From assembly GCF_001293775.1 (NCBI RefSeq), contig NZ_LGLN01000077.1, forward strand, positions 66,807-130,806: a stretch of 64,000 nucleotides of DNA, read 5' to 3'. A program made the position numbers and the translations under genes. Positions 1 to 64,000 of this stretch are shown piece by piece. How positions within the stretch are numbered: position 1 is the first letter of the stretch; the number at the start of each line of letters is the position of its first letter. Source of the DNA: Pseudomonas syringae pv. cilantro. GTDB lineage: Bacteria > Pseudomonadota > Gammaproteobacteria > Pseudomonadales > Pseudomonadaceae. Below the pieces are notes generated by a model. It did no database searches. It had not been told where the DNA came from and saw nothing but the letters and a program-made list of their open reading frames with translations.

Positions 1-35
1 TGTGCCAGACATAACCAAGGCAGCTGAATTCAGGG

Positions 36-72
36 CCGCTTCGCAGCCCTTCGCGGACAAGTCCGCTCCCAC
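36..72. repeat. REP-like palindromic element
   Basis: The stretch carries the typical Pseudomonas REP core, with the arms CTTCGCGGAC and GTCCGCTCCCAC around a short loop. It lies in non-coding DNA at the left edge, before the first gene. The same family recurs near 14.84 kb. Identification rests on recognising the core sequence. Confidence 0.65.
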
Positions 73-164
73 GCCCTCCGGGCAGAAGCCCGATTTCCGG
101 ACTTATCGAGATGAGCGCTCCAGTGTGGGCAAGACAATCTCGGCTTGAAGCTTACCGCTCAAGC

Positions 165-521
165 CTATTCCAGATGCTCCGGCTTGACCGGATCGCCCGA
201 CTTGACGTTCAGTTTGTCGCGAATGTCGTCGAACATCCGGTCGTAGTCTTTATGTTGCGCAATGGGCAAAGCGGCGGAGTTGTGCAGACCGTGTCTGATG
301 GCGATGCGGCTGGCGTTACGAGCGAAGTTGAAAGCCAGATCGCGTGTCAGCTGGAACTGCTCTTCAAACGGTTTGCCACCGATTTCACCCTGCATGGTGA
401 AATGCATGGAGGTGCCTTCCTTTGGGTCTTCGTTGACGTCGTAGCGCAAGTGAATGTCATAGCTGATATCCGACGGTTGCAGCGCTACGTAGGTGAGGTG
501 CAGATGGCCTGGCTCGTACAT
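165..521 (-). CDS. DUF5064 family protein
   Basis: A 118-residue soluble protein with no signal peptide or membrane segment. The N-terminus (MYEPGHLHLTYVAL) and the central run of hydrophilic strands resemble the small Pseudomonas-restricted family annotated as DUF5064, whose function is unknown. It is a single gene read leftward, about 100 bp beyond the DUF454 gene in the same direction, so a shared transcript is possible. Family assignment is from recall of the sequence pattern, so no function is claimed. Confidence 0.7.
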   Translation of the reverse strand: MYEPGHLHLTYVALQPSDISYDIHLRYDVNEDPKEGTSMHFTMQGEIGGKPFEEQFQLTRDLAFNFARNASRIAIRHGLHNSAALPIAQHKDYDRMFDDIRDKLNVKSGDPVKPEHLE

Positions 522-623
522 GAAATGACTCCATCAGGTGATGAGTGTGCTCAGTCAGACACTAATCGTGTCCGGCCGGTTCAGCGTTATGCGTGTGGCG
601 GCGCTCATGTGCTGCTGTCTCGG

Positions 624-1088
624 TCAATGCTCACGGTCAGCTTTGGCGGGCTCGGGTCTCGACCATATCCAGATATTGCCCAGTGCCATCCCGGTCAGTG
701 CCAGATACAGCCACCAGGCATGACCGATCAGGCTCAGCATGACCACCGCGCACACCAGCATGCTGACGGTTGCGCTGATTTTGGCCTTACGGGCGACCAG
801 TCGGCCATTACGCCAGTTGTACAGGATCGGCCCGAATACCCGATGGTTTTCCAGCCAGGCGTTCAGCCGCGGCGAACTGCGTGTCGCTGCCCAGGCCGCC
901 AGCAGAATGAATTCGGTGGTCGGCAGGCCAGGAACGAAGATCGCAACGATGCCTATGCCAAGCGCGGTGTAGGCGAGGATGCCGTATAAAAGGCGTGAAA
1001 GTCGGGAGCCGGGTGGTTTGTACGTCATGGTCTCTACAGGCAGGTTCGGAAAGCCCGGCCAGCTTAACAGCACCGGGCGCTTTTTCAT
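624..1088 (-). CDS. DUF454 (YbaN-type) inner-membrane protein
   Basis: A 154-residue protein with hydrophobic segments near residues 30-55 and 105-140 and the DUF454 signature FVPGLPTTEFILLAAW, followed by a conserved R-L-N-A-W-L-E-N-H motif. YbaN-type proteins are small inner-membrane proteins of unknown function, often found beside haem or iron uptake genes. The ATG at 1088 overlaps the stop of the upstream remnant as ATGA, which suggests the gene was once translationally coupled to it; a second Met 20 codons in (MTYKPPG) is the alternative start. The reading frame is intact although its former partners are decayed. Confidence 0.8.
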   Translation of the reverse strand: MKKRPVLLSWPGFPNLPVETMTYKPPGSRLSRLLYGILAYTALGIGIVAIFVPGLPTTEFILLAAWAATRSSPRLNAWLENHRVFGPILYNWRNGRLVARKAKISATVSMLVCAVVMLSLIGHAWWLYLALTGMALGNIWIWSRPEPAKADREH

Positions 1089-1198
1089 GCCTGAGCTACT
1101 TCGGCTACAGGTGCATCGATGTAGGCATGCTGCAGCAGTACATTGAATCGCTCGAAAGCTGCAATCGCTCCTTGATCAAGTTGCGCTTCCTGCCACGG
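1085..1198 (-). pseudogene. C-terminal remnant, probably haem oxygenase
   Basis: About 36 residues remain open in this frame, containing AIAAFERFNVLLQHAY and ending EVAQA-stop. The A-F-x-R-F-N-x-L-L pattern resembles the final helix of bacterial biliverdin-producing haem oxygenases. No start codon or body of the protein is present upstream; the sequence switches frame near 1190-1200 into a different remnant. Its stop overlaps the start of the DUF454 gene. The identity is inference from a short motif plus the neighbouring Fur box and sigma-factor remnant. Confidence 0.4.
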
Positions 1199-1328
1199 TC
1201 AGGTGATCCGCTTGCAGGCGTAACGGCAGATTGCTGAAGCTGAACAGCCCCAGCAGCAGAACGGCGGCGGTTTCCAGTGCGGGCGGACACGCTGCCACAC
1301 TGAAGGCTAACGCGGCTGCGCAAGGGTT
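1176..1328 (-). pseudogene. Possible FecR-like anti-sigma remnant
   Basis: An open stretch of about 50 codons without a start encodes a hydrophobic segment (AAVLLLGLFSFSNLPLRL) followed by QADHLTVAG. This order, a transmembrane helix and then an A-D-x-x-T-x-x-G motif, is typical of the middle of FecR-type transmembrane sensors. It is stopped on both sides and overlaps the haem-oxygenase-like remnant in another frame, as expected at a deletion junction. It could also be a chance hydrophobic frame. Confidence 0.3.
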
Positions 1329-1358
1329 TCAGTCGCAAGTTGAACGGGTTGAGCGTGC

Positions 1359-1442
1359 TCAGGCTGGCGAGCAGGCGCTTGGCGTGCGCAACAGCACGGT
1401 ACGTTGGGCCAGAAAGACGTCATTGAAGCGAGACTGCGACAC
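1359..1442 (-). pseudogene. N-terminal remnant of an iron-starvation ECF sigma factor
   Basis: A GTG at 1442 opens a 27-codon frame reading VSQSRFNDVFLAQRTVLLRT before a stop. That is the usual beginning of FecI-type ECF sigma factors of pseudomonads, where region 2 should continue; here it is cut off. A Fur-box-like sequence lies 30-50 bp upstream on the same strand, as expected for such a gene. The fragment is too short for certainty. Confidence 0.45.
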
Positions 1443-1470
1443 AAGGAGAGCCCGACCAAAGATTCAAGCA

Positions 1471-1489
1471 AATGATAATGCTTCTCATC
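1471..1489 (-). promoter_or_regulatory. Candidate Fur box
   Basis: AATGATAATGCTTCTCATC matches the 7-1-7 Fur consensus TGATAAT-N-ATTATCA at 12 of 14 defined bases. It lies just upstream of the sigma-factor remnant and is flanked by an 8-bp inverted repeat (CCCGACCA at 1451-1458, TGGTCGGG at 1493-1500). Nothing intact now appears to be driven by it except possibly the DUF454 gene. From here to 1608 no further gene is seen. Confidence 0.5.
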
Positions 1490-1608
1490 TTCTGGTCGGG
1501 TCAAGCGTGGATCGGTAAATATTTGTTCCGGCAGTGTCTCGTTCCTGCGTTCCGGTAAGAGCTGCCTGCGGTGACACCAGCCATCACGTCCAGCTGCTCA
1601 TGAAACGG

Positions 1609-2610
1609 TTACTGCGCGTTATGCAGCGCCAGGCAGTTGTCGAGCATGCGGTTGGAAAACGCCCACTCGTTGTCGTACCAGGACAGAACCTTGAGCAATT
1701 TGCCGCTGACTTTGGTGTGATTGGCGTCGAAGATCGACGACAGCGGGTTGTGATTGAAGTCGTGGGAGACCAGCGGCAGGGTGTTGTAACCCAGGACCTT
1801 CGAGTGCTGGCTGGCTTCTTTCATCAGCGCATTGACTTCTTCAGCCGTGGTTTCACGTTTCAGGGTTACGGTCAGGTCGACCAGCGAAACGTTGATCACC
1901 GGGACGCGAACGGCCATGCCGGTCAGTTTGCCTGCCAGTTCCGGCAGTACCAGGCCCACCGCTTCGGCAGCGCCGGTCTTGCTCGGGATCATCGACTGGG
2001 TGGCCGAACGTGCGCGGTACGGGTCTGTGTGATAGACGTCGATCAGGTTCTGGTCGTTGGTGTAGGCATGGATGGTGGTCATCAGGCCGCTTTCGATACC
2101 CAGTTCACGGTGCAGCACTTGCGCGACCGGTGCCAGGCAGTTGGTGGTGCATGATGCGCTGGAGATAATCTGGTGCGACTGGCGCAGCGTGTCGTGGTTG
2201 ACACCATAGACGATGGTGGCATCGGCACCGCTGGCCGGGGCGGAGATAATCACCTTGCGCGCACCGGCAGTCAGGTGCGCCGCAGCCTTGTCGCGGCTGG
2301 TGAACAGGCCGGTGCATTCGAACACCACGTCGATGTTCTGCGCTTTCCACGGCAGTTCGGCCGGGTTGCGGATGGCGCTGACCGAAATACGGTCACCGTT
2401 GACGGTCAGACTTTCCTTGTCACACTCGACCGTGCCGCTGAACGGGCCGTGTACGGTGTCGAAACGCAGCAGGTGTGCGTTCATTTCGCTGTCGCCCAGA
2501 TCGTTGATGGCGACGACCTGCAGGTCCTGACGGTAGCCTTGGGTATACAGTGCGCGTAGGACGTTGCGGCCGATTCGGCCAAAACCGTTGATTGCGATAC
2601 GAAGAGTCAT
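1609..2610 (-). CDS. gapA: Glyceraldehyde-3-phosphate dehydrogenase, type I
   Basis: A 333-residue GAPDH converting glyceraldehyde 3-phosphate, NAD+ and phosphate to 1,3-bisphosphoglycerate in the cytoplasm. The Rossmann motif [10 protein letters not shown] lies at residues 7-16, and the catalytic cysteine is C154 in SASCTTNC; the conserved HAYTNDQ and WYDNEW motifs follow. Length is normal for the family. It is divergent from edd across 219 bp holding two HexR-type operators, so the enzyme acting below KDPG aldolase is probably induced together with the Entner-Doudoroff genes. Confidence 0.97.
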
Positions 2611-2631
2611 ACAGCCGTCCTTCTAAATTTG

Positions 2632-2646
2632 TTGTTGGAATTACAA
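2632..2646. promoter_or_regulatory. HexR operator, gapA-proximal
   Basis: TTGT-TGGAATT-ACAA fits the published Pseudomonas HexR consensus TTGT-N7/8-ACAA exactly. It lies 22 bp upstream of the gapA start, where a bound repressor would block gapA transcription. HexR releases DNA on binding KDPG, the Entner-Doudoroff intermediate. Confidence 0.75.
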
Positions 2647-2693
2647 GATTATTCTCATAGAAATAGAAAACAAGCCTTTTTAGTGGCAATATT

Positions 2694-2708
2694 TTGTTTT
2701 ATCTACAA
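2694..2708. promoter_or_regulatory. HexR operator, edd-proximal
   Basis: TTGT-TTTATCT-ACAA is a second exact match to TTGT-N7-ACAA, 62 bp from the first (start to start) in the gapA-edd intergenic region. It is well placed to control the edd-glk-gltR-gtrS operon, whose first codon is at 2830. The hexR gene itself is at 15.2 kb. Confidence 0.75.
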
Positions 2709-2829
2709 CTACAAGCCTGAAAGGCCCTCCCGGTTGATCGAGATCAGGGTTCTGCTCCCTGACCGCCACTGCTCGAAAACCGGAACCGTCTTTACGGGTG
2801 ACCTTAGACGTTAGCCTGGAGTTCATCAC

Positions 2830-4656
2830 ATGCATCCCCGCATTCTTGAGGTAACCGAGCGGCTCATCGCTCGCAGCCGTGACACCCGTCAGCGTTATCT
2901 TGAATTGATTCGCGGTGCAGCGAGCGAAGGCCCGATGCGCGGCAAACTGCAATGTGCCAACTTTGCTCACGGGGTCGCTGCCTGCGGCCCGGAAGACAAG
3001 CAAAACCTGCGTCTGATGAATGCCGCCAACGTGGCGATCGTCTCTTCCTACAACGAAATGCTCTCGGCGCATCAGCCCTACGAACACTTTCCTGCGCAGA
3101 TTAAACAGGCGTTACGTGACATTGGATCGGTCGGTCAGTTTGCCGGTGGCGTGCCCGCCATGTGCGATGGCGTGACCCAGGGCGAGCCGGGCATGGAACT
3201 GGCCATCGCCAGCCGCGAAGTGATCGCCATGTCTACCGCCGTGGCGTTGTCGCACAACATGTTCGATGCCGCGCTAATGCTGGGTATCTGCGACAAGATC
3301 GTCCCCGGCCTGATGATGGGCTCGCTGCGTTTTGGCCATCTGCCGACCGTTTTCGTGCCGGGCGGGCCGATGGTGTCGGGGATTTCCAACAAGCAAAAAG
3401 CCGACGTGCGGCAGCGTTACGCGGAAGGCAAGGCCACTCGCGAAGAGCTGCTGGACTCGGAAATGAAGTCCTACCACGGCCCCGGCACCTGCACCTTTTA
3501 CGGCACGGCCAACACCAATCAGTTGCTGATGGAAGTCATGGGCATGCACCTTCCCGGTGCTTCGTTCGTCAATCCTTACACGCCATTGCGCGATGCGCTG
3601 ACTGTCGAGGCGGCGCAGCAGGTCACCCGTCTGACCAAACAGAGCGGCAACTTCATGCCGATCGGCGAAATTGTCGACGAGCGCTCGCTGGTCAACTCCA
3701 TTGTCGCGCTGCACGCGACGGGCGGCTCGACCAATCACACGCTGCACATGCCCGCCATCGCCCAGGCTGCCGGTATCCAGTTGACCTGGCAGGACATGGC
3801 CGATCTGTCGGAAGTGGTGCCGACCCTCAGCCACGTGTATCCGAACGGCAAGGCGGACATCAACCATTTCCAGGCCGCCGGCGGCATGTCGTTCCTGATT
3901 CGCGAGTTGCTCGCTGCAGGCCTGCTGCACGAAAACGTCAACACCGTGGCCGGTTACGGCCTAAGCCGCTACACCAAAGAACCCTTTCTGGAAGACGGCA
4001 AGCTGGTCTGGCGCGAAGGTCCGCTGGAAAGCCTGGATGAAAATATCCTGCGCCCGGTATCGCGTCCGTTTTCGCCGGAAGGTGGCCTGCGGGTCATGGA
4101 GGGCAATCTGGGCCGCGGCGTGATGAAGGTTTCTGCTGTTGCTCCCGAGCACCAGATCGTCGAGGCTCCGGCCAAGGTATTCGAGGATCAGCAGGACCTG
4201 GCTGATGCGTTCAAGGCCGGCGAGCTGGAGTGTGATTTCGTTGCCGTGATGCGTTTCCAGGGGCCACGCTCCAACGGCATGCCCGAGCTGCACAAGATGA
4301 CGCCGTTTCTGGGCGTTCTGCAGGACCGGGGTTTCAAGGTTGCGCTGGTGACCGATGGACGGATGTCGGGCGCTTCGGGCAAGATCCCGGCAGCGATTCA
4401 CGTCTGCCCTGAAGCGTTCGATGGTGGCCCGTTGGCACTGGTGCGCGATGGCGATGTGATCCGCGTCGATGGCGTAAAAGGCACGTTACAAGTGCTGGTC
4501 GAGGCGTCAGAATTGGCCGTCCGCGAACCGGCCGGCAATCAGCTCGACAACAGCGTTGGCTGCGGTCGCGAGCTGTTTGGATTCATGCGCATGGCCTTCA
4601 GCTCCGCAGAGCAAGGCGCCAGCGCCTTTACCTCTAGTCTGGAGAAGCTCAAGTGA
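2830..4656 (+). CDS. edd: 6-phosphogluconate dehydratase
   Basis: A 608-residue member of the IlvD/Edd dehydratase family, which removes water from 6-phosphogluconate to give KDPG, the first committed step of the Entner-Doudoroff pathway. Recognisable blocks are [15 protein letters not shown] and [13 protein letters not shown] in the N-terminal half, where the iron-sulfur cluster cysteines lie, and [16 protein letters not shown] near residue 505. A GGAG ribosome site precedes the ATG. Its last codons overlap the glk start by 4 bp. It heads edd-glk-gltR-gtrS and is likely repressed by HexR. Confidence 0.97.
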
Positions 4657-59027: not shown

Positions 59028-59333
59028 GGATTTTCGGGCTATCTCAATATCAACCGTGTTGCAATTCGTGTTAAGGACGGGGGGCATAACGTCACACCGG
59101 ACAAGGTACGTGCACGTTATTACAGATGCTTGGCACTGCTTCCTGAGGCAATTCAAGCAACGAGTCGGGCGTATTTGTTTGACAATTCAAGGGCTAAAGC
59201 TGAGCTAGAAGCAGAAATCACCGATGCGTCAGATGTTGAATACACATTCAACGAGGTGCCGGAATGGTGCAGCGTTGCAATTGAAGCGCTTGAAAAGCTT
59301 GTGCACTATGCACCTTGGATGCATAACGTCTAA
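59028..59333 (+). pseudogene. Zeta-toxin-like ATPase remnant, C-terminal part
   Basis: In one frame from 59028, directly after a stop, the sequence reads INRVAIRVKDGGHNVTPDKV, then RARYYRCLALLPEAI and RAYLFDNS. This is the C-terminal half of the zeta-toxin/predicted ABC-type ATPase family (COG4185), which normally begins with a Walker A motif. The N-terminal half with the P-loop is absent here and no start codon suits the frame, except ATG 59130 inside it. The tail overlaps the NUDIX gene by 4 bp. The region 58909-59027 shows nothing else. Confidence 0.7.
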
Positions 59334-59794
59334 AACAGCTTCTGCCCCCAAACCCCCGCATCCTCGAGCATTTGTGAAAGGCTGTCTGGCCATACGATTT
59401 CTTCTGTAGATTTCAGCTCGTTAGCGGACCACCAACGATGCTCCGCCATGACCTGAGTTTCCTGCCAAGTCCATTCTGACCGAGAGAGCGCCTCACTCTC
59501 GGCATGCACAACGTAGTATCGCTCAACTGCGAGCACGGTTTCGCCGCTGGGAAGCAGCATCGGGAAACTTCTGTCGGCAATGTGTTCAGCGACCGAGCTG
59601 ACCCGGATACCGGTTTCTTCGCGCAGTTCACGCATGGCAGCGGCCTCAAAAGTTTCGCCGTCTTCGACGCCACCGCCAGGCGTTGCCCAATAGTTTTTGC
59701 CGGCCAGCGCACCCTCTTTATGCTGAAATCTGAACAGCAATACTGCTCGTGACGGGCTGATTACCAGCAATCGTGCGGATTTTCGCTCACGCAT
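59330..59794 (-). CDS. NUDIX hydrolase
   Basis: A 154-residue pyrophosphohydrolase. The Nudix box reads GGGVEDGETFEAAAMRELREETGI, given here in its two parts GGGVEDGE and RELREETGI, with all catalytic glutamates present. Substrate is unknown; the family cleaves nucleoside diphosphates linked to another group. It is alone in the leftward direction, next to the zeta-toxin-like remnant. Confidence 0.9.
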   Translation of the reverse strand: MRERKSARLLVISPSRAVLLFRFQHKEGALAGKNYWATPGGGVEDGETFEAAAMRELREETGIRVSSVAEHIADRSFPMLLPSGETVLAVERYYVVHAESEALSRSEWTWQETQVMAEHRWWSANELKSTEEIVWPDSLSQMLEDAGVWGQKLF

Positions 59795-59836: not shown

Positions 59837-60523
59837 TCAAGCCTCATGCCGCCTTCGCGCATCGGTGAGCATGGAGATCGTCAGTTTGCGCACTTCCAGT
59901 TTGCTGATTTCCACGTGTGAGCGTAACAGCAACAACGCCTCATCCCGTTTGCGCGCCTGCAATGCGTTGAGGATGGCGGCGTGTTCGAGGTAGGTGTGTT
60001 CGATGCGGGCGCTTTTGAAGAAGTCGAGGCGTCTGACGATGCGGATGCGTTCGGTGACCTCCTGGTGAACCCGGGCCATTTCCAGGTTGCCTGAGGCCGC
60101 CACCAATTGCGTGTGAAACTGTTCATCGAGGTCGGCAACGATTTGCATATCGACCTGCCTGCGCTCGGGAGCGATCAGCCAGTGTGCGCGCAGGATATTG
60201 AGCTCCGGATGCACGTCGGAGGAGGCGCAGATACGTTCGATCGCCGCGCATTCAAGCACGATGCGCAGGTCGTAGAGTTGATCGATCTGGTTGAAATCCA
60301 GCGGTCTGACTGACCAGCCGCGCCGGAACTCTACGTCCAGATAGCCTTCGCGTTGCAGGCGATAGAGCGCATCACGTATCGGGGTTCGCGAGACTTGATA
60401 ACGATCTGCCAACTGGGTTTCGGTAAACCGGTCGTAAGGCAGCAGATAAAAGTCGAAAATCTCCTGCTTGAGCCGGCGATAGACGTCTTCTGCCAGCGCG
60501 TTGGTGGTGTTCGGGGGATTCAA
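59837..60523 (-). CDS. GntR/FCD-type transcriptional regulator
   Basis: A 228-residue regulator with a winged helix at about residues 10-75 (LADRYQVSRTPIRDALYRLQREGYLDV) and an all-helical FCD ligand domain at about 85-215 (LYDLRIVLECAAIERI, EQFHTQLVAASGN). In this subfamily ligands are often small organic acids or amides. Its start overlaps the end of the DUF3225 gene (ATGA), making it the last gene of the hydrolase operon, where it is probably an autogenous regulator. Confidence 0.9.
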   Translation of the reverse strand: MNPPNTTNALAEDVYRRLKQEIFDFYLLPYDRFTETQLADRYQVSRTPIRDALYRLQREGYLDVEFRRGWSVRPLDFNQIDQLYDLRIVLECAAIERICASSDVHPELNILRAHWLIAPERRQVDMQIVADLDEQFHTQLVAASGNLEMARVHQEVTERIRIVRRLDFFKSARIEHTYLEHAAILNALQARKRDEALLLLRSHVEISKLEVRKLTISMLTDARRRHEA

Positions 60524-60915
60524 GGGCGTGGCTCCAGGCTGCTCAGGTCAATGCTGACATGTGCGGCAACGACTTTCCAGCCGCCCTCAAGGCGAGCCCA
60601 GGTCTGCATTTGTCGTCCCAGACGTTGAGTCACGCCATCGTGGAATTCGGTACTGACGGTGGCGAAGTCTTCGCCAAAGGTGCTGATCACGGTACGCAAC
60701 AACGTGCGGCCCGGCCCGACCGGCTGACACTGGCGTCGATAGCGCGCAATGGTGTCGGCGCCGTGCAGGTTCTCCGCGACGCCGTAGCGAACGGTCTGTT
60801 CGGAATTCCAGAAGTAGGCATCCAGTGTGGCCAGTTCATTGGCCAGCAGGGCGCGTTCGTAGTCGTTGAAGGCGTGGGTCACTTCGGCGACCACATGGGG
60901 AAGGTTGATGTCCAT
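60520..60915 (-). CDS. DUF3225 (AtzH/HpxZ-like) protein
   Basis: A 131-residue NTF2-like protein. The pattern HAFNDYERALLANELATLDAYFW, VRYGVAENLHGADTIARYR and TWARLEGGWKVVAAHVS follows the DUF3225 family, which includes HpxZ of oxalurate catabolism and AtzH of the cyanuric-acid amidase system. These assist amidohydrolases. It overlaps the hydrolase upstream and the GntR gene downstream, suggesting a shared pathway of N-carbamoyl or ureide compounds. Confidence 0.85.
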   Translation of the reverse strand: MDINLPHVVAEVTHAFNDYERALLANELATLDAYFWNSEQTVRYGVAENLHGADTIARYRRQCQPVGPGRTLLRTVISTFGEDFATVSTEFHDGVTQRLGRQMQTWARLEGGWKVVAAHVSIDLSSLEPRP

Positions 60916-61592
60916 TACTGCGTACTCCTTGTGTGCAGGGCCAGTTGCAGGTCGGCGAGCGAGGCAACCCGCCCGACAATCGCACCTTGCGCGGTGATCA
61001 TGTCCAGGGTGGCCTGTTTGAACGCGGGGAAATAGCTTTCGGTGGCGTCTTCGAGCAGCAGGCAGCGATAACCCCGGTCATTGGCCTCGCGCATGCTGGT
61101 CTGCACGCAGACTTCGGTGGTGACGCCGGCAAAAATCAGGTAGGTGATGCCCGCTTCGGCGAGCTTGGCGTGCAGATCGGTGGCGAAAAACATGCCTTTG
61201 CCGGGCTTGTCGATGATCCATTCACCGGCAATGGGCGTCAGCGCGTCGATGATCTGATTGCCGGGCTCGCCGCGAACCAGAATGCGCCCCATCGGCCCCG
61301 GATCGCCAATGCGCAGCCCCGGTGAACCGTGCTCGAGTTTGGCTTGCGGGCAGTCGGCCAGGTCCGGGTGGTGAGATTCGCGGGTATGAATCACTGCAAG
61401 ACCCTGGTCGCGAGCCAGCGCCAGCAGTTGCCGCACGGCGGGCACGATGGCTTGCAGAGGCGCGACATCGTTGCCCAGCGCGGCCCCGAACCCGCCGGGT
61501 TCCAGAAAATCGCGCTGCATGTCGATGATCACCACCGCTGTACGCGAGGGCTCGAAGAGGAAGGCGGAAGGGCGCGCTTGCAGGCTGATCAT
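60915..61592 (-). CDS. Isochorismatase-like cysteine hydrolase 2
   Basis: A 225-residue cysteine hydrolase. The catalytic triad should be D24 ([10 protein letters not shown]), a lysine in [10 protein letters not shown] and C162 ([10 protein letters not shown]). It is clearly paralogous to the hydrolase encoded at 63.1 kb, sharing [13 protein letters not shown] and the R-E-A-N-D-R-G block. Likely substrates are biuret, ureidoacrylate or other amides; the sequence does not say which. It overlaps the ABC ATPase gene by 4 bp. Confidence 0.88.
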
Positions 61593-63130
61593 GGCAACGC
61601 CTCCGAATGCTGTTCGGCACCGGCCATGTGCCGACCCAGCTCGGTGCGGTCGGCGGTCGCTGCGGGGGATGCAAAAACCAGCTCGCCGTCATGAATGACC
61701 ACGATGCGGTCGGCCCGGCTCAGCAGTTCGTCGAGGTCTTCACTGAGCAGCAGAACCGCTGTGCCGTTGTTGCGCGCATCGATCAGGCGCTGGTGGATCA
61801 GCGCCACACTGGCAAAGTCCAGGCCGAAGACCGGGTTGGCGACGATCAGCACGGCGACGTCACGAGTCAGTTCGCGGGCCAGCACGGCGCGCTGCACGTT
61901 GCCGCCCGACAGGGTGCCGATCGGCCGGTTCGGGTCGTTGGGCGAAACCTGAAACTGCTCGATCAGTGTTTTTGCCTGCGCGCCAATGGCACGACGATCG
62001 AGACGCCAGCCCTGACGGCACAAAGGCGGCTGGTCGAAGTTGCGCAGGGCCAGATTGTCAGCGACGCTGAAACCGCCAATACAGCCATTGCGCAAGGGTT
62101 CTTCCGGCAGACTGAACACCCGCAAGCGCTGCATCTGTTCGCGCCGGGCGTGGTAAGGCTGGCCGTCGACCGAGATTTTTCCTGCGCTGAACGGTCGTTG
62201 GCCGAGCAGTGCTTCGGTGAGTTCGCGTTGCCCGTTACCGGAGATGCCCGCAATCCCGACAATTTCCCCCGGATGCACCGCCAGCGAAAGGTTCTTCACC
62301 GCCAGCGTTCCCTTGTCGCCCGGCACGTCCAGGTTTTCTACCTGCAATTGCGGCGCGCTGGCCGCCGATAGCGGGCGCTCAGTGCTGACGCTGCGCAACT
62401 GCGCTTCGCCCATCATCCAGGCGGCCATCTGCTGAGTGCTGGTGTCGGCCACGGCTGCCGTGCCCACCCAGCGACCCTTGCGCAACACGGTAACGTCGTC
62501 GGCGTAGGTGCTGACCTCGCGAAACTTGTGGGTAATCATCAGCACGGTCAATTCGCCACGGTGCGCCATCGCCTGCATCAGGCCTAGCACTTCATCGGCT
62601 TCCTGGGGCGTGAGCACCGAGGTGGGCTCGTCGAGAATGACCAGCCGCCGCTGCAGATACAGCTGTTTAAGGATTTCCAGTTTCTGTTTTTCACCGGCGG
62701 CCAGGCTGCTGACCGGGCGATGGATGTCGAGCCGCAAGGGCATGTCCGCCATGAACGCTTCGAGGCGCTCGTGCTCGGCGGCCCAGTTGATCCGCCACGG
62801 CAGATCACCCCGCGACAGCACCAGGTTTTCCGCAACGCTCAGGCCCGGCGCGACGGTGAAGTGCTGATAGACCATGCCGATCTGCAACTGATGCGAGTCG
62901 CGCGGTGTGCGAATCGCATGCTCGCGGTTGTTGATCAGAATGCTGCCTGATTGCAACGGGCTGTAGCCAATGATGCCTTTGACCAGCGTGCTTTTGCCCG
63001 CACCGTTTTCGCCGAGCAGGGCGTGCACGGTGCCGGCGCGGACCTTGAACGACACCTCGTCCAGCGCCCGAAACGTCCCGAAATGTTTGCTGGCACCGAT
63101 CGTTTCCAGGCTCGCGGCGCGCATGCTCAT
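61589..63130 (-). CDS. ABC transporter ATPase, nucleoside/BMP type
   Basis: A 513-residue double ATPase (two NBDs in one chain, like RbsA and the BmpE/NupO group). NBD 1 has Walker [10 protein letters not shown] (residues 40-48) and Walker B in [18 protein letters not shown] 2 has the signature [18 protein letters not shown] and a degenerate Walker B reading VANPVFGLD, as usual for this branch. It would energise uptake of a nucleoside, nucleobase-like or ureide compound. The start at 63130 overlaps the stop of the upstream hydrolase (ATGA). No permease or binding-protein gene is seen inside the window; they may lie beyond the right edge. Confidence 0.88.
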
Positions 63131-63813
63131 GCCTCCAGTAGATCGCGAAGCAGCGACGAATGACCGACGGCGCCGAACACGCCGCCCTGCATCTTGACCA
63201 TGCTCAGCGCCGCCGCGTGATTGCCCGGATCGGTGGCGCCGCAGCAATCTTCGAGCAGCAGGCATTCAAAGCCGCGGTCGTTGGCTTCGCGCATCGTAGT
63301 GTGCACGCAGACGTCGGTGGTGATGCCGGTCAGGATCAGGTTATCGATGCCGCGCGTGCGCAGGATCAGCTCCAGATCGGTGGCGCAGAACGAGCCTTTG
63401 CCGGGTTTGTCGATGATGATTTCGCCGGGCAGCGGGGCCAGCTCGTCGATGATTTCCCAGCCCGGTTCGCCGCGCACCAGAATCTTGCCGCACGGGCCCG
63501 GATCGCCGATCCCTGCGCCGATACGCTGCGAGCGCCAGCGTTTGTTGGCCGGCAGGTCGCTGAGGTCCGGGCGATGCCCCTCGCGGGTGTGAATGATGGT
63601 GAAGCCGAGCGGACGCATCACCGTCAGCAGCGCCTTGATCGGTTCGATAGGCGCACGGGTCAGCGCCAGGTCATAGCCCATGCTGTCGACGTAGCCACCG
63701 ACGCCGCAAAAGTCGGTCTGCATGTCGATCACGATCAACGCCGTGTTGTGCGCGTGCAACTGGCCGTTCCATGGCCAGGGGTAGGGCTGCGACGCAATAT
63801 GACGTTCACTCAT
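63127..63813 (-). CDS. Isochorismatase-like cysteine hydrolase 1
   Basis: A 228-residue cysteine hydrolase with D30 ([11 protein letters not shown]), the lysine in [10 protein letters not shown] and C169 ([10 protein letters not shown]). Sequence style is close to biuret amidohydrolases, triuret hydrolase and RutB-type ureidoacrylate amidohydrolases. It has an N-terminal extension [19 protein letters not shown], also typical of that group. It precedes the ABC ATPase and follows the partial gene at the right edge. Substrate not determined. Confidence 0.88.
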
Positions 63814-63817
63814 GGCG

Positions 63818-64000
63818 TTACTCCTTCCAGCTGCCGGGCGTGGGTTTGAAGTCGCGTTCGGGCGCGGCGAAACCGCACGAGCTGCCGTCGGTGTGCACCA
63901 CGTCGTTCTCCCAGGGCAAGCGGTACAGGCCAGCGGTCAGGTCGTGCATGTACGTGTAAGGGCAATCGCGTGCGCCGCCCTTGACCGCCACATAACCGCG
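63818..64000 (-). CDS. Partial unidentified gene, C-terminal end
   Basis: The last 60 residues and stop of a protein that begins outside the window. It ends [19 protein letters not shown], then [20 protein letters not shown] and GSWKE. No family is recognised by me. The short gap (4 bp) to the next gene shows it is in the same operon as the two cysteine hydrolases. Confidence 0.6.

Follow-up and report, generated by a model that had tools for sequence, protein, structure and literature searches.

A ten-gene operon of Pseudomonas syringae pv. cilantro with a probable triuret/biuret core and an accessory formamidase gene

Results

Organization of the gene cluster

The window analyzed in this study, a stretch of 64,000 nucleotides from Pseudomonas syringae pv. 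cilantro, ends within a cluster of ten same-strand genes on the minus strand (Table 1). The far end of the cluster (C42:136642) is located about 5.8 kb beyond the window end. Its members are atzF, the gene of a BMP binding protein, two permease genes (Perm1 and Perm2), a formamidase gene, biuH, the gene of an ABC ATPase, trtA, a DUF3225 gene and gntR. The first-pass annotation had placed five complete genes here, and their positions and strand were borne out by the gene calls and their family labels by Pfam/NCBIfam. The five-gene operon that it proposed was, however, an under-count. It had rightly seen that the operon leaves the window, and the rightward extension that it called for gave the two permeases, the BMP binding protein, the formamidase and AtzF. 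A gene does begin the visible part, as it had noted, but can be identified as a member of the formamidase family, with its 3' end in the window.

Table 1. Genes of the cluster that lie in the window (window positions)
Feature	Position	Strand	Basis
Formamidase-family gene, 3' end	63818..64000	-	NF009803, PDB 5g3o and 2dyu, residues
BiuH, 228 aa	63127..63813	-	NF050097, PDB 6azo, residues
ABC importer ATPase, BMP/nucleoside/sugar type, 513 aa	61589..63130	-	PF00005, NF047930
TrtA, 225 aa	60915..61592	-	PDB 6xix, residues
DUF3225 AtzH/HpxZ-like protein, 131 aa	60520..60915	-	PF11533, NF033625, PDB 6bjt
GntR/FCD regulator, last operon gene, TTG start	59837..60523	-	PF00392, PF07729

The BiuH/ATPase and ATPase/TrtA junctions both read ATGA, with an overlap of 4 bp each. 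The DUF3225/GntR junction is TTGA, again an overlap of 4 bp provided that the TTG start is right; it is TTGA in four of five close relatives and GTGA in the other. The TrtA/DUF3225 junction, by contrast, is TAATG with an overlap of 1 bp (TAATG or TGATG in the five close relatives compared), so that the 4-bp overlap claimed earlier for every junction holds for three of them. The formamidase gene stops 4 bp ahead of the BiuH start. A NUDIX gene behind the regulator (59330-59794) was considered as part of the operon and rejected, as it was present in only 1 of 80 loci (L010).

Hydrolases

On the basis of their sequences, the two cysteine hydrolases are BiuH and TrtA. The best solved match of TrtA was PDB 6xix (E 6.9e-93, no gaps over 1-217), which is the Herbaspirillum TrtA according to PMC7948467. 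Of the TrtA positions checked, 14 of 15 were identical to those published (PMC7948467). The catalytic triad (D24, K129 and C162) and the substrate residues (E72, K132 and Q202) were all identical with the same numbering, as were five of the six TrtA-specific residues F35, N41, A134, E160, Y187 and I205. Position 134 is Met here; the replacement A134S is tolerated in TrtA (PMC7948467).

BiuH scored 416.7 bits against NF050097, above the equivalog cut-off of 370, whereas the TrtA of the window scored 243.6 bits, below it. BiuH matched PDB 6azo (E 8.3e-120), the Rhizobium BiuH according to PMC7948467, and possesses the BiuH-type residues Y41, Y47, S141, D167, T194, Q209 and V212. The residues that tell BiuH from TrtA were taken from the same paper, in which Thr is implied by the mutant Y187T. 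Guanylurea hydrolase GuuH is unlikely as an identity because the TrtA and BiuH residues fit. The ureidoacrylate hydrolase RutB was rejected (TIGR03614, 121.2 bits for BiuH and 103.5 bits for TrtA, cut-off 378), as was an isochorismatase or nicotinamidase, solved relatives of those kinds scoring far below TrtA and BiuH.

AtzF, encoded outside the window, scored 822.5 bits against TIGR02713 (cut-off 511) and carries a C-terminal AH_C domain (PF21986) at 474-596.

Importer

The ABC ATPase matched PF00005 in two stretches, that is, it has two ATPase domains. Its best NCBIfam model was NF047930 (413.7 bits, under the cut-off of 670). The four importer parts scored 51, 130, 145 and 414 bits against NF047927-NF047930, the putative B6 BMP-type importer, which was the only named NCBIfam set matched; all four missed their cut-offs (400, 465, 400 and 670). 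By these matches, the importer is assigned to the same superfamily as that putative importer. Among solved structures, the BMP binding protein was closest to 3s99, which is adenine-bound, and to 6pi5 ("atrazine periplasmic binding protein"). A ring compound may therefore be transported, which counts against our best explanation. The leader of the binding protein looks like a twin-arginine signal.

DUF3225 protein

The DUF3225 protein matched PF11533 (AtzH-like, E 1.4e-52) and PDB 6bjt (AtzH, E 8.3e-35), and passed the equivalog cut-off of NF033625 (HpxZ, 162.7 bits against 135). Y19 and R43, the likely equivalents of Tyr22 and Arg46 of AtzH given an inferred 3-residue offset from the published numbering, were found in 60 of 60 rows (our protein and the best match of 59 of the 80 loci, themselves the best 80 of 567). 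AtzH is a proposed 1,3-dicarboxyurea decarboxylating amidohydrolase, and AtzE and AtzG, which make its proposed substrate, were not found among the ten operon genes. The context lends no support to an oxalurate role, as in HpxZ, since nothing else of the hpx type was assigned among the operon genes. The gene sits after trtA, where the carboxybiuret decarboxylase gene trtB could be expected, and this position suggests that its product may be TrtB. The trtB paper is reportedly Aukema 2020.

The atzDGEHF operon for cyanuric acid in Pseudomonas sp. ADP (PMC6219798) shares AtzF and an AtzH-type DUF3225 protein with the present operon. In contrast to that operon as described there, TrtA and BiuH are found here and AtzE, AtzG and AtzD are absent from the ten genes. 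A search for AtzD gave no matches in this genome, but none in any of the 14 control genomes either, so that the negative result says little about its absence.

Regulator and operon start

Both PF00392 and PF07729 scored above cut-off in the GntR/FCD regulator. A palindrome, TGTATACA, is located at the operon start in front of atzF and is a candidate operator, from which the GntR/FCD protein would repress the operon until the substrate is present. A scan of L009:14500-15300 gave no sigma-70 promoter, and a loose sigma-54 pattern ahead of the operon was matched in one relative only (L014).

Conservation of the cluster

The best 80 of 567 TrtA-like loci were taken, 67 of which had enough flank to be scored. 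Among these 67 scorable loci of the best 80, BiuH was found in 65 and the ATPase in 64, on the same strand and within 8 kb. Since BiuH and the ATPase lie near TrtA in nearly all of them, the clustering is not due to chance. The counts in the same set were 65 for Perm1, 64 for the BMP binding protein, 64 for Perm2, 55 for DUF3225, 45 for GntR and 34 for the formamidase; AtzF, on the same strand and within 8 kb, was found in 15. The operon is kept across alpha-, beta- and gammaproteobacteria. In close relatives, TrtA and AtzF diverge faster than the neighbouring operon proteins, which counts against our best explanation. Amidase matches, about 30% to AtzF, were seen near the cluster in other species.

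Formamidase

The whole formamidase gene (C42:130624-131640, 338 aa) lies mostly outside the window. Its product, a member of the nitrilase superfamily, scored 561.4 bits against NF009803 (cut-off 406) and matched PDB 5g3o (E 2e-105) and 2dyu (E 1.3e-95), which we take to be AmiF of Bacillus cereus and Helicobacter pylori, respectively. Glu61, Lys130, Trp134, Glu138, Cys163, Asp165 and Tyr189 were invariant in an alignment of 36 rows (our own and 35 from TrtA loci, with up to two gapped rows allowed). Presuming the AmiF numbering, the protein keeps the Cys-Glu-Lys triad (E61, K130 and C163) and the wall formed by Trp137 and Tyr192 of AmiF (W134 and Y189). It thus shares with AmiF full-length homology, the catalytic residues and the wall, and differs in being encoded inside a triuret/biuret operon.

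Among 398 Pseudomonadota genomes, all 15 with the formamidase had BiuH, compared with 11 of the 383 others (P 1.3e-20, relatedness ignored). The two genes were on one contig within 8.5 kb in 14 of the 15 genomes; the gap was 7-104 bp in eight and 1.6-8.5 kb in six, and the genes lay on separate contigs in one. Of 149 genomes of the genus, five had the formamidase (E <= 1e-80), and exactly these five have TrtA at at least 77%. In 35 TrtA loci, the formamidase gene was located between permease and biuH (29), between ATPase and trtA (4), before BMP (1) or before biuH at a contig end (1).

The formamidase is among the most conserved operon proteins (mean distance 0.21, as for BiuH). Its distances correlate with the distances of five further proteins encoded in the operon (r 0.74-0.87), as plain common descent would also give. 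Since it is absent from 33 of the 67 scorable TrtA loci (best 80 of 567), the formamidase is an accessory of the operon.

Discussion

Triuret and biuret are small nitrogen-rich molecules; fertiliser contains them, and so does oxidised uric acid. The ten genes very probably form a nitrogen-scavenging operon with a triuret/biuret core; homology establishes the enzyme identities and the operon structure, and the reactions of TrtA, BiuH and AtzF are those published for relatives. The BMP binding protein, the two permeases and the ATPase would bring in triuret/biuret-like ureides. TrtA would deaminate triuret to carboxybiuret, which would lose CO2 to give biuret, either spontaneously or aided by the DUF3225 protein as a putative decarboxylase. 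In the absence of enzyme, carboxybiuret decays with a half-life of about 20 min (PMC7948467). BiuH would then deaminate biuret to allophanate, and AtzF would convert allophanate to ammonia and CO2. The import and stepwise hydrolysis of a nitrogen-rich ureide proposed earlier are supported by the predicted importer and hydrolases, and the two successive substrates then suggested would be triuret (TrtA) and biuret (BiuH).

The first-pass annotation knew of no characterized pathway with this set of genes. The route from triuret through carboxybiuret, biuret and allophanate to ammonia by TrtA, BiuH and AtzF is, however, already published (PMC7948467), and trtA, biuH, trtB and atzF have been described together with bmpA-nupABC in ammonia oxidisers (PMC12625717). 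The flanking genes, to which the first-pass annotation had tied the fate of its reading, do identify this known pathway, although the formamidase is not used by it. As in Herbaspirillum sp. BH-1 and Rhizobium leguminosarum 3841 (PMC7948467), TrtA, BiuH and AtzF are encoded in one operon, with the same catalytic and discriminating residues. The ammonia-oxidiser contigs (PMC12625717) share the triuret enzymes and a BMP-type nucleoside-like importer, and gntR is named in the legend of Fig. 6 there. The formamidase is a difference from both, since no word beginning with "formamid-" appears in the main text of PMC7948467 or of PMC12625717. Where the body of PMC12625717 has trtB, its abstract has atzH, perhaps written in error for atzF.

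It is highly improbable that the operon instead serves breakdown of pyrimidines (Rut) or of oxalurate and allantoin (Hpx/All). The RutB model does match the hydrolases, at 121 and 103 bits, but its cut-off of 378 bits is missed, BiuH is above its own cut-off and the TrtA-specific residues are present. The DUF3225 protein is above the HpxZ cut-off, and one genome from a different genus (L108) has an allantoate amidohydrolase gene between the formamidase gene and the BMP-BiuH block; none of the ten operon genes, however, was assigned to Rut, AtzE or other Hpx functions. With the triuret/biuret reading, the published pathway, together with an importer, a regulator and a candidate operator, is now placed in a plant-associated Pseudomonas group. 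No report on triuret together with syringae was found in the non-subscription literature searched. In that literature we likewise found no link between a formamidase and a biuret hydrolase, the one paper on formamidase and biuret being apparently unrelated by its title; the pathway is known, and the formamidase in a triuret/biuret operon is the part for which no report was found.

Formylurea corresponds to biuret, and formylbiuret to triuret, in which H takes the place of one NH2. We tentatively propose, as a possible though rather doubtful role of the formamidase, a formyl branch in which BiuH and TrtA make formamide from these analogues and the linked formamidase finishes the reaction, within a wider salvage of oxidised-nucleobase fragments. 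Deamination of formylurea (or formylbiuret) by hydrolases of the TrtA/BiuH type would yield N-formylcarbamate. This would break down to formamide and CO2, and the formamidase would split formamide into formate and ammonia, thereby recovering the last nitrogen of the formyl analogues. Ammonia release by TrtA from formylurea, its best other substrate, is 0.3% of the triuret rate (PMC7948467), the sole source found in the non-subscription literature that treats formylurea and biuret together. This low rate weighs against the branch, as does the fact that no measurement of BiuH with formylurea was found there. If the branch exists, it would be a physiological source of formamide for Pseudomonadota with a formamidase beside BiuH, and conservation of the operon would be explained by purines and pyrimidines damaged by ROS or by C-H s-triazines such as 5-azauracil. 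The tie between formamidase and BiuH in the sampled Pseudomonadota makes the origin of natural formamide, and the reason for splitting it, testable.

Methylophilus methylotrophus has a formamidase that presumably belongs to another protein family, FmdA. Its gene clusters with those of a short-chain amide/urea importer and is induced by formamide and urea (PMC10781810). It is thus quite conceivable, if short of probable, that our formamidase uses free formamide entering through the same permissive small-amide importer, with no step shared with BiuH or TrtA. The fmdCABDEF cluster has in common with the present operon a formamidase and a binding-protein-dependent small-amide importer; TrtA, BiuH and AtzF, present here, do not figure in its description in PMC10781810. 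Use of free formamide also agrees with the conserved Trp/Tyr wall, which is said to limit AmiF to formamide (PMC10781810), and with the 33 of 67 scorable TrtA loci (best 80 of 567) that miss the formamidase. It leaves unexplained, however, the restriction of the formamidase to genomes with BiuH (15 of 15, among 398) and its recurrence at different positions of the cluster in the 35 TrtA loci.

An action of the formamidase-like enzyme on allophanate, biuret or a formyl-ureide, as a stand-in for AtzF or as a new amidase, is unlikely. The strong conservation of the protein, equal to that of BiuH, and the lack of a local AtzF in 32 of the 67 scorable loci (best 80 of 567) would fit such a role. 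The catalytic and pocket-wall residues of AmiF are nevertheless conserved, and substitution for AtzF was rejected, since no significant anticorrelation with AtzF at the locus was seen (15/19/20/13 table, P = 0.22) and an allophanate hydrolase above cut-off was present in nine of nine formamidase genomes tested. Seven of these nine have no AtzF in the locus examined, the copy of L021 possibly lying just beyond it.

Layout of the operon

The window was placed at positions 66807-130806 of contig C42 in the genome under study (G000), and the cluster was then traced outward past the end of the window. The first-pass annotation had described five genes here with a 4-bp overlap at every junction. All five genes were confirmed at their place on the minus strand, within a cluster of ten (Table). 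The overlap claim held for three of the four junctions (two ATGA and one TTGA), and failed for TrtA/DUF3225, where the overlap is 1 bp (TAATG here; TAATG or TGATG in five relatives).

Table. Genes of the operon in reading order
Order	Gene	Position	Strand
1	AtzF	C42:136642-134825 (L009:12826-14643 in the fetched operon locus)	
2	BMP binding protein	C42:134810-133701 (start 134828 if TTG)	
3	Permease	C42:133691-132579	
4	Permease	C42:132586-131666	
5	Formamidase	C42:131640-130624	
6	BiuH	window 63813-63127	minus
7	ATPase	window 63130-61589	minus
8	TrtA	window 61592-60915	minus
9	DUF3225 protein	window 60915-60520	minus
10	GntR	window 60523-59837	minus

Assignment of the enzymes and the importer

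The first hydrolase, BiuH, scored 416.7 bits against the NCBIfam biuret amidohydrolase equivalog (cut-off 370). Its top solved relative was Rhizobium BiuH (PDB ID: 6azo, E 8.3e-120), and it has BiuH-type residues at every position compared with TrtA. The second hydrolase, TrtA, scored 243.6 bits, under the same cut-off; its nearest solved structure was Herbaspirillum TrtA (PDB ID: 6xix, E 6.9e-93), which aligned over residues 1-217 without a gap. Of 15 checked positions that PMC7948467 names for TrtA, this protein matches 14; at the remaining one, A134, it has Met, and in that paper A134S caused no loss. The nearest named TrtA relatives, among the best 80 of 567 TrtA-like places, were from Pseudomonas cerasi and others (78-84%), by which the genome probably falls in the syringae group. 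Four other operon genes were assigned as AtzF, formamidase, AtzH-like/HpxZ and GntR/FCD. The score of the DUF3225 protein exceeds the HpxZ cut-off, and its position makes it a candidate for TrtB.

The importer is a BMP-superfamily system, but all four parts scored under the cut-offs of the matched NCBIfam set (putative B6 importer). The closest solved structures to the binding protein were 3s99 and 6pi5 (the latter titled "atrazine periplasmic binding protein"), and its N-terminus resembles a twin-arginine type leader (RRSFIKLAG).

Conservation of the operon

PMC7948467 shows that TrtA converts triuret to carboxybiuret and that this decays to biuret; it assigns the following steps to BiuH and AtzF. 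In ammonia-oxidising bacteria, trtA, biuH, trtB, atzF and bmpA-nupABC are adjacent, as reported in PMC12625717. Judged by sequence, the conserved core of the present operon is the same as this published triuret set. The pathway is already known, and the formamidase is the part that triuret breakdown leaves unexplained.

Conservation was scored in the 80 best TrtA-like places, a sample biased to close relatives. In 67 of them the flanks reached 6.5 kb or more upstream and 1.5 kb or more downstream. Among these 67 loci, BiuH and permease 1 were each present in 65, the binding protein, permease 2 and the ATPase each in 64, the DUF3225 gene in 55, GntR in 45 and the formamidase in 34. A same-strand AtzF within 8 kb was found in 15; when any AtzF at 41% identity or higher was counted, on either strand and anywhere in the fetched locus, the number was 35.

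When compared with the fetched loci L010-L012, TrtA and AtzF differed by 8-10% at codon positions 1 and 2, and the other operon genes by 2-6%. Amino acid identity was 82-86% for TrtA and AtzF, 91-95% for permease 1, the ATPase and GntR, and 95-98% for the BMP protein, permease 2, formamidase, BiuH and the DUF3225 protein. TrtA and AtzF thus diverge faster, yet the active site is retained. Triuret itself may be the less constrained substrate of the operon.

Association of the formamidase with BiuH

The formamidase (E <= 1e-80) was found in five of 149 genomes of the genus, the same five in which TrtA reaches at least 77% identity; two others had only a 48-51% match to TrtA (BiuH or another relative) and lacked the formamidase. 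In the phylum, 15 of 398 genomes, including the genome under study, carry it at 71-100% identity; three additional matches at 36-37%, which from identity alone are candidate aliphatic amidases, were excluded from this count. BiuH (at least 72%) was found in 26 of the 398 genomes. The formamidase was present in 15 of these 26 and in none of the 372 others (P 1.3e-20, with genomes treated as independent although they are related); these searches scored a few best candidates per genome, so that misses are possible.

The gap between the formamidase and biuH was 7-104 bp in eight of the 15 and 1.6-8.5 kb in six, five of them in one genus (g109); in one genome (G242) the two genes were on different contigs. 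In four g109 loci (L108, L109, L111 and L112) the fetched stretch contains BiuH and no TrtA match; in L110, the fifth, a TrtA-like match of 54% lies on the opposite strand. Since these loci have BiuH mostly without TrtA, it is BiuH to which the formamidase seems to be tied.

Among the 80 fetched TrtA loci, 35 bear the formamidase. In 29 of them it is flanked by permease 2 and biuH, and in four by the ATPase and trtA; in one it precedes the binding protein, and in one it precedes biuH where the contig ends. Its pairwise distances correlate with the distances of five further proteins of the operon (r 0.74-0.87, 35 sets), for which common descent alone might suffice, and it is conserved like BiuH (mean distance 0.212 versus 0.206). 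The formamidase as a substitute for AtzF was rejected by comparing the occurrence of the two: within the fetched loci they showed no significant anticorrelation (P = 0.22), and each of nine formamidase-bearing genomes tested encodes an allophanate hydrolase over the cut-off.

In L108 (G258:C95:62000-80000), 7.7 kb separate the formamidase from BiuH downstream of it; the stretch between the formamidase and the BMP gene encodes an allantoate amidohydrolase (573.7 bits, cut-off 479) and a DctA transporter. The gaps in L109-L112 are 3.6-8.5 kb. In the G242 locus (L113, G242:C5:20000-36000), which has no BiuH on the contig, the formamidase is about 0.5 kb from a molybdopterin oxidoreductase-type gene whose NCBIfam matches, including one to a formate dehydrogenase alpha model, are all under cut-off.

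Possible source of formamide

The pocket of the known formamidase AmiF is walled by Trp and Tyr and admits formamide only, according to PMC10781810. W134 and Y189 are invariant among the operon formamidases (alignment of 36). Since this wall is retained, the residues point to formamide rather than formylurea as the substrate. TrtA and BiuH take ammonia off a terminal ureide, so that a carbamate remains. With a formyl group at the far end, as in formylurea, the product would be N-formylcarbamate, and loss of CO2 would give formamide, the AmiF substrate. In PMC7948467, the substrate on which TrtA worked best after triuret was formylurea, from which it released ammonia at 0.3% of the rate seen with triuret. 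We propose this route from formylurea through TrtA or BiuH to the formamidase only tentatively, and would sooner doubt it than rely on it; its main rival is that free formamide is taken up.

Candidate operator before atzF

In the sequence upstream of atzF, ATCTTGTATACATGAA, the palindrome TGTATACA stands directly before the gene (L009:14647-14654, that is, C42:136646-136653, outside the window). The 80 loci, 1,492,187 bases in all, contain it 12 times. Ten of these sites precede the first recognised operon gene by 11-280 bp, a distance taken to the point where the tblastn match begins. Of the ten, nine are in Pseudomonas, Stutzerimonas and Halopseudomonas loci and one is in Salinarimonas. In L013 (P. 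californiensis; 1-3600), the operon and the palindrome are kept with no atzF match at the head, the site preceding the binding-protein gene; an allophanate hydrolase over cut-off is encoded elsewhere in that genome. This recurrence before the first operon gene, L013 included, suggests a candidate operator to which the GntR/FCD protein of the same operon would bind. Counting against this role, none of the other loci of the 80, L016 and L017 among them, has the exact octamer ahead of the operon.

A second allophanate hydrolase of the genome under study (L123, G000:C33:46000-58000) matched in two frames at C33:51805-53476, in a partly masked stretch. It adjoins a biotin-dependent carboxylase gene, probably, from its ORF, that of urea carboxylase.
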